Positions 17,004 to 27,548 of a stretch of 64,000 nucleotides of DNA are shown here, piece by piece. The position numbers and the translations under genes are program-made. Under the pieces are notes generated by a model, which worked only from the letters and a program-made list of their open reading frames with translations, had not been told where the DNA came from and made no database searches. This stretch comes from Haloarchaeobius amylolyticus (lineage in GTDB: Archaea > Halobacteriota > Halobacteria > Halobacteriales > Natrialbaceae), in contig NZ_JANHDH010000002.1 of NCBI RefSeq assembly GCF_026616195.1, positions 744,001 to 808,000 of the forward strand, in the 5' to 3' direction. The stretch's first letter is position 1, and the number at the start of each line of letters is the position of its first letter.

Positions 17004-17726
17004 ATGACAGCCGACGGTTCGTGGGTGAGCCTCTTCTCCGGCGGGAAGGACTCCTCGTGGGCGCTCTACCGGGCGCTCGAGGAGGACCTGCCCGTCTCGC
17101 ACATGCTGACGGTCCACCCCGAGGGCGAGTCGTACATGTACCACGTCCCGGCGACGGAGCTCACGTCGCTCGCGGCAGAGAGCATCGGTCTGGAACACGT
17201 GAACGTCACCCCCGAGGACTTCGACGCGATGGCCGCGACGGATTCCGCGGCACAGGGTGACGCGGAACTGGAGCCTCTGGAGGCCGCACTGGTCGACCTC
17301 GCCGACGACCTCGACGGTGGCCTCGCTGGCGTCACGGCGGGCGCCATCGAGAGCGAGTTCCAGACCTCGCGCATCCAGGCGATGGCCGACCGCCTCGGCT
17401 GTGACGTGTTCGCGCCGCTGTGGCAGCGCGACCCGTCCGAACTCGCCGCGGAGATGCTCGACGCGGGCTTCGAGATCACCATCCTGCAGGTCGCCGCCCA
17501 CGGCCTCGACGAGTCGTGGCTGGGGCGGACGCTGGACGCCGACGCATTCGCCGAGCTGGCGGCGCTCAACGAGGAGTACGGCGTCCACGTCCTCGGTGAG
17601 GGTGGCGAGTTCGAGACCTTCGTCACCGACGGCCCGCACATGGCGCGGCCCATCGAGCTGGAGTACGAGACGGTCTGGGAGGGGACGCGCGGGCACATCG
17701 AGATAACGGACGCCTCCCTCGGCTAG
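17004..17726 (+). CDS. dph6: Diphthine--ammonia ligase (diphthamide synthesis)
   Basis: A 240-residue ATP-dependent ligase that amidates diphthine to diphthamide on elongation factor 2. The PP-loop reads VSLFSGGKDSSWALYRAL at the N-terminus. The ATP-grasp-like Dph6 features follow: GLAGVTAGAIESEFQTSRI, CDVFAPLWQRDPSELAAEML, VHVLGEGGEFETFVTDGP and the C-terminal strand GTRGHIEITDAS. The length is normal for archaeal Dph6. The last 114 nt, coding ETFVTDGP through the stop, are found again at 17845-17958 after a hairpin element. Only five bases differ, none changing the protein. Confidence 0.92.
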   Translation: MTADGSWVSLFSGGKDSSWALYRALEEDLPVSHMLTVHPEGESYMYHVPATELTSLAAESIGLEHVNVTPEDFDAMAATDSAAQGDAELEPLEAALVDLADDLDGGLAGVTAGAIESEFQTSRIQAMADRLGCDVFAPLWQRDPSELAAEMLDAGFEITILQVAAHGLDESWLGRTLDADAFAELAALNEEYGVHVLGEGGEFETFVTDGPHMARPIELEYETVWEGTRGHIEITDASLG

Positions 17727-17748
17727 ACTGTCGCTGTACTGTACTCAT

Positions 17749-17767
17749 CCGCCGGCTCTGCCGGCGG
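17749..17767 (+). terminator. Hairpin with T-run after dph6
   Basis: CCGCCGGC-TCT-GCCGGCGG is a perfect 8-bp stem with a 3-nt loop, followed by TCTTTTTGG. This is the shape of an intrinsic terminator, 22 nt after the dph6 stop. In the other copies of the composite element (26443-26465, 26568-26592) a hairpin also precedes a T-rich stretch. Confidence 0.55.
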
Positions 17768-17779
17768 TCTTTTTGGCCC

Positions 17780-17837
17780 AGCTTTTTCGAGGAGCGGTTC
17801 GCGAGCGAATGCGAGCGCACCCGACGACGAAAAAGGT
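17780..17837. repeat. Hairpin element, copy 1
   Basis: A 58-nt imperfect palindrome starting AGCTTTTT and ending AAAAAGGT. The left arm AGCTTTTTCG...GGTTCGC faces the right arm GCGCACC...CGAAAAAGGT, and the apex is GAGCGAATGCGA. The terminal T5/A5 tracts are part of the stem. Copies 2 and 3 lie at 26480-26536 and 26606-26680. They have different arm sequences but the same ends and nearly the same apex. Immediately to the right (17845) the dph6 3' end is repeated. Confidence 0.6.
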
Positions 17838-17844
17838 GGTTCCT

Positions 17845-17958
17845 GAGACCTTCGTGACGGACGGCCCGCACATGGCGCGGCCCATCGAGCTGGAGTACGA
17901 GACGGTCTGGGAGGGGACGCGTGGGCACATCGAGATAACGGACGCCTCCCTCGGATAA
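17845..17958 (+). pseudogene. Duplicated 3' end of dph6 (38 codons including stop)
   Basis: A second copy of 17613-17726 lies here, separated from the first by the terminator-like hairpin and hairpin element copy 1. The 114 nt differ at five positions: two in GTCACC/GTGACG, one CGC/CGT, one GGC/GGA and one TAG/TAA. All are silent, so the 37-residue protein segment is identical. An open frame continues upstream through the hairpin element (TTG at 17773), but that extension is non-coding in character. I read it as a gene fragment made by partial duplication. Confidence 0.75.
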
Positions 17959-26399: not shown

Positions 26400-26435
26400 G
26401 ACAGCACGAGCGGTTCGAAGGACCCGAGTGCTGTC
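26400..26435 (+). other. Outer hairpin of the repeat array
   Basis: GACAGCAC (26400-26407) pairs with GTGCTGTC (26428-26435), a perfect 8-bp stem enclosing 20 nt. It begins 38 nt after the methyltransferase stop. Its right arm lies inside the first copy of the 24-nt direct repeat. Confidence 0.4.
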
Positions 26436-26542
26436 GTTCAGTGGGCGCGAGCGAAGCGAGCGCCCAGCCTTTTTGGCCGAGCTTTTTGCGCGAGTGGTTC
26501 GTGAACGAAGTGAGCGAACCCGACGCGGAAAAAGGTCGTTCT
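26417..26542. repeat. Composite repeat unit 1 between convergent genes
   Basis: This 126-nt unit consists of a 24-nt direct repeat (26417-26440), a GC hairpin with arms GGGCGC/GCGCCC and apex GAGCGAAGCGA (26443-26465), a CCTTTTTGG tract, then hairpin element copy 2. The 24-nt segment recurs exactly at 26543-26566, opening unit 2. The first hairpin plus T-run could end transcription coming from the methyltransferase gene. Confidence 0.6.
26480..26536. repeat. Hairpin element, copy 2
   Basis: A 57-nt imperfect palindrome with AGCTTTTT at the left end and AAAAAGGT at the right. Inner arms GGTTCG and CGAACC (26496-26501, 26515-26520) enclose TGAACGAAGTGAG. The outer stem pairs TTTTT with AAAAA and CGCG with CGCG. 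The arms differ from copies 1 and 3 while the ends and apex are conserved. Confidence 0.6.
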
Positions 26543-26680
26543 GAAGGACCCGAGTGCTGTCGTTCACCGAGTGCGAACGGCGTGAGCACTCGGCCTTTTC
26601 AGCGTAGCTTTTTGGACCGAGTGGTTCTCGCAGGGGTTGAACGAAGTGAAACCCCGAGGAAACCCGAGGTCTAAAAAGGT
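26543..26680. repeat. Composite repeat unit 2 between convergent genes
   Basis: It opens with the second copy of the 24-nt direct repeat (26543-26566). A hairpin with arms CGAGTGC/GCACTCG and apex GAACGGCGTGA follows (26568-26592), then GCCTTTTC and hairpin element copy 3. Order and spacing match unit 1, but every hairpin arm has a different sequence. The unit ends 4 nt before the korB stop codon. Confidence 0.58.
26606..26680. repeat. Hairpin element, copy 3 (also likely end of korB transcript)
   Basis: A 75-nt imperfect palindrome, AGCTTTTT...AAAAAGGT, with inner arms GGGGTT/AACCCC around GAACGAAGTGA (26633-26655) and an outer stem pairing GACC with GGTC and TTTTT with AAAAA. Read on the minus strand it starts with CCTTTTTAG just after the korB stop, a T-rich 3' end of the type cut by aCPSF1. 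Confidence 0.58.
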
Positions 26681-26684
26681 CCTC

Positions 26685-27548
26685 TCAGTAGAACTCCCGG
26701 ACCAGGTCCATCGCGTTCTCGGGTGCGCCGTCCGGAATCTCGGACATGTTCTCGGTGACGCCGTGGACCTCGTGGTACGGGACGGATTCCTCGTCCTGGT
26801 AGAGGACGCCCATGTACTCCTTGTCGCCTTCGAGGATCTTCTGCTTGGCCGCCTCGCGGTCGGTCGGGTCGTGGCCCTCCTCCTTGAGGTCGACCAGCGA
26901 GTCGCGGAAGTAGTCGTAGGTGTCGACGTCGTTGAACGTGACACACGGGCTGAAGGTGTTGACGAAGCCGAAGCCGTCGTGCTCGATGGCCTGCTGGATG
27001 ATCTCGGCGTGGCGCATCGCGTCGGAGCTGAACGACTGGGCGATGAACGTCGCGCCGGAGGCGAGTGCGAGCGCGAGGGGGTTGACCGGGGGCTGCTGCG
27101 GGCCTTCCGGGGTCGTACTCGTCTCGAAGTCCGAGCGCGAGGTCGGCGAGGCCTGGCCCTTGGTCAGCCCGTAGATGCGGTTGTCCATGACGACGTAGGT
27201 CATGTCGGGGTTCCGGCGGACGGCGTGGACGAAGTGGCCGGCACCGATGGAGTAGCCGTCACCGTCGCCACCCGCGACCATCACTTCGAGGTCGGGGTTG
27301 GCGAGCTTGACGCCCGTGCCCACGGGGAGTGCGCGGCCGTGGACGCCGTGGAGGGCGTAGCTGTGCATGTAGGTGCCTATCTTGCCGGAACAGCCGATGC
27401 CGGCGACGACGAACGTGTTGTCGGGGTCGTTCCCCGTGTTCGCCAGTGCCTTCATCATGCCGTTCATCGTACCGAAGTCACCACACCCGGGACACCAGGT
27501 GGGCTGCTTGTCGGACTTGAAGTCGGTGAATCGAACGTCTGAGCTCAT
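26685..27548 (-). CDS. korB: 2-oxoacid (probably 2-oxoglutarate):ferredoxin oxidoreductase, beta subunit
   Basis: The 287-residue thiamine-diphosphate subunit of the haloarchaeal two-subunit oxidoreductase. It oxidises a 2-oxoacid with CoA to acyl-CoA, CO2 and reduced ferredoxin. Features: the N-terminal QPTWCPGCGDFG cysteines, GIGCSGKIGTYM, and the ThDP/Mg motif GGDGDGYSIGAGHFVHAVRR ending in MDNRIYGLTKGQ. SPCVTFNDVDTYDYF is the conserved C-terminal region. Its ATGA overlaps the korA stop by 4 nt, so the subunits are coupled. Haloarchaea also have a pyruvate paralogue; I choose 2-oxoglutarate from overall resemblance and cannot exclude pyruvate. Confidence 0.9.
   Translation of the reverse strand: MSSDVRFTDFKSDKQPTWCPGCGDFGTMNGMMKALANTGNDPDNTFVVAGIGCSGKIGTYMHSYALHGVHGRALPVGTGVKLANPDLEVMVAGGDGDGYSIGAGHFVHAVRRNPDMTYVVMDNRIYGLTKGQASPTSRSDFETSTTPEGPQQPPVNPLALALASGATFIAQSFSSDAMRHAEIIQQAIEHDGFGFVNTFSPCVTFNDVDTYDYFRDSLVDLKEEGHDPTDREAAKQKILEGDKEYMGVLYQDEESVPYHEVHGVTENMSEIPDGAPENAMDLVREFY

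Follow-up and report, generated by a model that had tools for sequence, protein, structure and literature searches.

A palindromic element directly 3′ of dph6 in Haloarchaeobius amylolyticus, followed by a copy of the gene's 3′ end, belongs to an arrangement that recurs across haloarchaea

The window (the whole stretch of 64,000 nt analyzed here) carries an intact dph6 gene, which is followed on the same strand by a hairpin element and by a second copy of the gene's own 3′ end. The features of this locus are as follows.

17004..17726, + strand: dph6 (diphthamide synthase), the intact host gene (ORF; Pfam PF01902 Diphthami_syn_2, E=3.7e-52)
17613..17726, + strand: tail 1, the functional dph6 3′ end and left copy of the direct repeat (96% identity to 17845-17957)
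17727..17769, + strand: left part of the element, with a CTGTACTG..CATCCGC motif (~17734-17752) and a GC hairpin at 17749-17767 (agrees with the left end of the mobile repeat family of genus g24; hairpin fold)
17770..17840, + strand: palindromic core, made of T5, arm CCCA, T5, the GAGGAGYGGT/ACCCGACGA internal loop, A5 and arm GGTGGT (match to model R1 at 17769-17840, E=8e-17; arms covary)
17841..17844, + strand: TCCT, a probable relic of the right terminal motif TGTACTGA (right-flank comparison)
17845..17958, + strand: tail 2, the right copy of the dph6 3′ end, presumably an untranslated remnant (repeat of tail 1)

Downstream of the dph6 TAG the order is 43 nt with the GC hairpin, T5 and the 71-nt palindromic core ending in GGTGGT, the TCCT and tail 2, and the insert between the two tails is ~118 nt. 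Pairwise alignment showed that the last 114 nt of dph6 (17613-17726) recur without gaps at 17845-17958 (96% identity, with 17613-17726 matching 17845-17957). An earlier note on this DNA had claimed that the dph6 3′ end is duplicated across a hairpin with five silent-only differences, and that the second copy starts where the hairpin element ends; sequence comparison bore out both claims, tail 2 starting 4 nt 3′ of the GGTGGT arm. The differences, all silent, are C>G at 17624/17856 and at 17627/17859, C>T at 17690/17922, C>A at 17723/17955 and G>A at 17726/17958, the stop codon (TAG/TAA) being included. Five silent differences at this pair alone are too few for any proof. The arrangement of gene, element and tail occurs once in the genome.

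The dph6 region was searched against 40 relatives, and the order dph6, hairpin element, dph6 tail was also found in other genera, including Natribaculum breve and Natronococcus jeotgali, the complete chromosome of Natribaculum breve carrying three dph6 tails. Because the arrangement occurs independently in other genomes, this complete chromosome among them, the assembly artefact considered in the earlier note is very unlikely. The comparison of the dph6 downstream region among relatives proposed there gave a divided answer: the same arrangement is found in other genera, but most congeners are without it; a decayed form is present in Haloarchaeobius sp. FL176 (L005), as perhaps also in H. iranensis (L006). 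A histidine kinase gene lies 3′ of tail 2 in the window genome (G000) and does not follow dph6 in the congener G002, and the neighbors of dph6 in G004 are unchanged in the same-genus comparison. The search also matched the element core at many sites far from dph6. Several side observations were made at dph6 itself. In Natribaculum breve (L011/L293) three tails, two identical elements and a half element lie 3′ of the stop codon, and an insertion with inverted repeats (TACTGCCGGACGTAA...TTACGTCCGATAGTA) lies 3′ of the third tail; in Halobaculum saliterrae (L255) a 50-nt copy of the dph6 tail lies ~190 nt past the stop codon, with no recognizable element; and in Natronococcus jeotgali (L304/L022) the dph6 tails contain N bases, which suggest that the repeat was collapsed in assembly.

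The consensus of the element is TTTTTGGYCCAnnTTTTTCGAGGAGYGGT-stem-ACCCGACGAnGAAAAAGGTGGT. A model (R1), built from an alignment of 19 copies, matched in 36 of 41 related genomes, with 1-46 copies each, and in 23 of 197 sampled genomes of the phylum, all 23 in the order of the window genome; among the matches listed, none lay outside this order. Rfam gave no match at the element, the core had no match in phage sequences and a single one in plasmids, and carriage by phages or plasmids was rejected on these grounds. The arms vary yet pair (CCA:TGG, CGA:TCG, GGA:TCC, GTA:TAC, GCA:TGC), and this covariation left them fully paired in 88 of 99 copies, whereas shuffled arms averaged 30 and never exceeded 46. 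On one strand the internal loop GAG-Y-GGT/ACC-CGA is conserved. The core measures ~60-85 nt in most copies and the whole element ~147 nt in genus g24, which leaves no room for a transposase, and an inverted-repeat test found one central palindrome with covarying arms, the terminal motifs in genus g24 being direct repeats. The insert at dph6 is a copy of a haloarchaea-wide, non-coding palindromic element. At one further locus (L035, in G003) the right half of the element is repeated in tandem, in 43-nt units with four successive right ends.

A second site in the window (L087, 26417-26566) is a non-coding example of element plus repeat, and the region 26417-26680 holds two element copies, the 24-nt repeat and, a few nt beyond, the stop codon of a convergent gene.

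26417..26440, + strand: left copy of a 24-nt non-coding direct repeat at the second element (sequence comparison)
26469..26539, + strand: second copy of the element in the window (R1, E=9e-13)
26543..26566, + strand: right copy of the 24-nt repeat, 3 nt (TCT) after the arm (sequence comparison)
26596..26680, + strand: third, degenerate element, a few nt short of the convergent gene's stop codon at 26685-26687 (nhmmer, 20 bits)

We counted 109 distinct elements, the assembly-damaged copy L022 being left out. At 42 of them the upstream sequence, in almost all cases a gene 3′ end, is copied starting 0-8 nt after the right arm of the palindrome, and at 22 further elements the stop codon of a convergent gene lies 0-6 nt after this arm. 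Among 275 control gene ends, taken from 400 kb of the window genome, none had a tail copy; hence the dph6 tail copy is not due to chance. When same-locus controls were shifted (80 pairs) the maximum score was 43, against up to 391 at the real loci. The direct repeats span about 25-227 nt, and in 22 of 31 the repeat ends no more than 10 nt from the stop codon. The hosts are unrelated core genes, encoding Dph6, IleS, Spt5, EtfA, citrate synthase, HisF, PurH, a phosphotransacetylase (PTA)-domain enzyme and an MBL protein, and two of the targets were struck in several genera with differing repeat starts, namely ileS (L036, L108) and a radical-SAM-like family (L081, L107, L111, L127, L134). The hairpin, treated in the earlier note as incidental, is tied to the tail copy across haloarchaea, and dph6 shows one instance of a process that recurs. 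No description of gene-tail copies was found in the open-access literature; the tail-duplicating process seems to be undescribed and to leave the host gene intact.

At two loci (L061 and L106) the repeats seem to span not a 3′ end but a divergent gene's 5′ end. Since these loci seem to cover a gene start and L087 is non-coding, what the process copies is target DNA rather than gene tails in particular. Likewise, the repeat is not a gene-specific copy, because L087 is non-coding and the repeat at the citrate synthase gene of G004 reaches ~45 nt beyond the stop codon. The joint at the palindrome base is sharp and shows no consistent microhomology. The short right-end relics at tail-copy loci (TCCT, TCT, ACT, TGT) resemble remains of TGTACTGA. 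A target motif, GAGAC at the start of the tail, looked strong at dph6 but was weak elsewhere and was rejected; it may be due in part to the element's own right end (...TGTACTGA) and to the codon usage of acidic proteins. In G027, two elements (L040, L043) lie beside tRNA genes, with partial copies of tRNA 3′ ends nearby.

Pooled over loci, the codon differences between tails were 91 silent and 29 non-silent, whereas free drift of tail 2 predicts ~55% non-silent (p = 7e-12). The mismatch, by thirds of the tail from 5′ to 3′, was 4.9%, 4.8% and 7.6% (p=0.02). These silent-dominated differences, together with the gradient of identity, suggest conversion between the tails or exchange between element-bearing and empty alleles. 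The earlier note had offered selection on both copies, gene conversion, or replacement from a related strain; conversion or exchange with related strains is reasonable in view of the pooled counts, but the data lend no support to continuing selection on the second copy. When the dph6 changes were polarized with relatives, tail 1 had 11 silent and 3 non-silent changes and tail 2 had 6 of each, one of them a nonsense codon (L016, in another genus), so that tail 2 looks relaxed at least there, in small numbers. A match of the dph6 differences to another lineage, also suggested in the note, was not obtained, tails 1 and 2 being equally distant from other genera.

Comparisons within the genus covered several loci. 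At a gatA-like gene the element is present in G000 only, and tail 2 runs into the downstream sequence of the empty site of G002 (TGAGTTCGGTC / TGAGTCGGTC). At the citrate synthase gene, a single element lies against a convergent gene in G003; G001 carries its counterpart and, in addition, a new element with a tail copy of 77 nt, the neighbors being unchanged between the two; in G004 a different element lies between repeats of ~67 nt. At a serA-like gene, G001 and G003 share one element variant, which lies against a convergent gene; G004 carries a gene X and lacks the element; and in G005 the element is accompanied by a 31-nt tail copy and gene X, with neighbors unchanged relative to G004. In polC of G002, tail 1 and the bases after the stop codon match G000 and tail 2 is divergent. 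These cases favor an insert that consists of the element plus one tail, and they fit both a tail made at installation and a later joint between alleles.

Genus g24 carries the element within a dispersed, near-identical repeat of ~147 nt (left end CTGTASTGA, right side TGTACTGA), found in G102, G108 and G140 and in none of four congeners (G028, G120, G130, G200), and homologs of the flanks that have no element stop at its borders. Because these near-identical copies are dispersed, the element is mobile in this genus. The flanking repeat of these mobile copies is at most ~9 nt (CTGTACTGA), with no long ones. Three g24 elements (L340, L345, L393) seem to lie at synteny breakpoints: in a congener with no element there, the sequence left of one copy is joined to the sequence right of another. 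No reverse transcriptase (RVT_1) was found in 17 genomes tested, and reverse-transcriptase mechanisms were rejected on this ground. TnpA (Y1 transposase) was absent from G000, G029, G108, G140 and G012, all element-bearing and one with 46 copies, and dependence on TnpA was discarded as several element-rich genomes do without it. R1 had no match in 30 TnpB loci, for which reason a TnpB/omegaRNA link was rejected, and there are zero elements in a genome that has 51 TnpB-domain matches. A DNA-level mechanism is left, since there is no reverse transcriptase, TnpA is missing in element-rich genomes and the TnpB loci are without the element.

Of the kinds described so far, SMR and PATE elements of Haloquadratum come nearest (PMC3119063). 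SMRs measure ~80-110 bp, have inverted repeats and no transposase, and their mobilization is unexplained; they are described without target duplication, and SMR-A as aimed at IS605/PATE palindromes (PMC3119063). Our element is likewise haloarchaeal, short, non-coding and transposase-free, with dispersed homogeneous copies and a species-specific presence (G102, G108 and G140 versus the four congeners). However, it sits at gene 3′ ends with a direct repeat of 25-227 nt at 42 of 109 copies, whereas the SMR rule is no target duplication, and for this reason it is not filed as an SMR. With PATE/IS605-type elements it shares palindromes near the ends, a short terminal motif and transposase-free copies, but it has no TnpB association (its ends are not common to the 30 TnpB loci), five genomes that bear it have no TnpA (Y1), and it has long repeats where those elements have none. 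Judged from its letters, the insert may also pass for an intrinsic or bidirectional terminator, with a GC hairpin and then T5 right after the stop codon and T runs on both strands; terminators, however, have neither an internal loop sequence conserved across families nor tail copies. A gene 3′ end nearly repeated on the far side of a hairpin recalls a diversity-generating retroelement, but here there is no reverse transcriptase (17 genomes) and the differences are not adenine-biased. Finally, an integrase att site also restores the gene end and leaves a remnant on the far side, but at a fixed core in one gene, whereas here lengths vary, many genes are used and the insert is ~118 nt.

On the whole, the observations tilt toward a small non-coding palindromic mobile repeat that lies directly 3′ of the dph6 stop codon and whose long direct repeat was made at installation. 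Relative to the empty site, the locus would have gained the element and, once more, the final 114 nt of dph6, with the full gene kept whole on the left and the tail remnant on the right. The repeat may have formed through staggered target duplication by an enzyme, or through template switching or recombination at the palindrome base; selection would retain those events in which the stop codon falls inside the repeat, and homologous exchange between tails and between strains would keep the tails alike, with differences mostly silent and rising away from the element. Three results count against installation: no mobilizing enzyme was found (reverse transcriptase, TnpA and TnpB were checked), the mobile g24 copies have flanking repeats of at most ~9 nt and no long ones, and the repeat ends cluster at stop codons (22/31), which random target duplication without selection would not give. 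The wider statement, that a hairpin free of transposase and reverse transcriptase integrates at gene 3′ ends with duplication of 25-230 bp, never breaks its host and spreads between strains with co-conversion of flanking coding sequence, is offered tentatively. Possible, though on present data doubtful, is an old resident terminator, with tail 2 marking an unequal recombination joint between the element allele and the element-free tail of another strain, sometimes with a new downstream gene. The silent-dominated differences, the polC tails of G002 and the histidine kinase gene that follows tail 2 in G000 speak for such a joint, as does the serA-like locus, where the element is without tail 2 in G001 and G003 and with it in G005, so that later recombination fits as well as installation, gene X having no element beside it in G004. 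Yet the downstream neighbors are the same in four informative cases, dph6 tail 2 is no closer to another genus than tail 1 is, and a sharp joint lacking consistent microhomology would still require a special mechanism.

Local tandem duplication of tail and hairpin by replication slippage at the palindrome could produce true tandem units, which are known (the three tails of L011/L293; L081, L097, L099, L100), but recombination between existing tails can account for these, and the second element predicted after tail 2 is missing at most loci, dph6 included, which makes slippage improbable. RNA-guided or retro-type homing, by a hairpin RNA with a flanking guide or by the cDNA of a transcript, would agree with a conserved structure directly followed by a match to the host gene; we consider it very improbable, as RVT_1 is absent from the 17 genomes, the 30 TnpB loci and the genome rich in TnpB domains are without the element, and the copies reach the stop codon and are far longer than a guide. 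Integrase sites typically leave duplicated gene 3′ ends, and an integrase-type scar in the dph6 3′ end could look like this. The same hairpin at unrelated genes, with differing repeat lengths, and a core with no phage match and one plasmid match make such a scar hardly credible, in agreement with the earlier note, and equally so an assembly artefact, the same arrangement being present in complete genomes.

The movement of some small transposase-free haloarchaeal repeats has been described as enigmatic (PMC3119063). With installation as the preferred reading, the precise and measurable duplication of host coding sequence gives a datable, directional footprint of each event. The element family also offers a way into the precise exchange of foreign DNA between haloarchaea, for instance the unexplained deletion-coupled insertions that have been reported in Haloquadratum. 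For annotators, many gene-end fragments may be footprints of the element and not pseudogenes.
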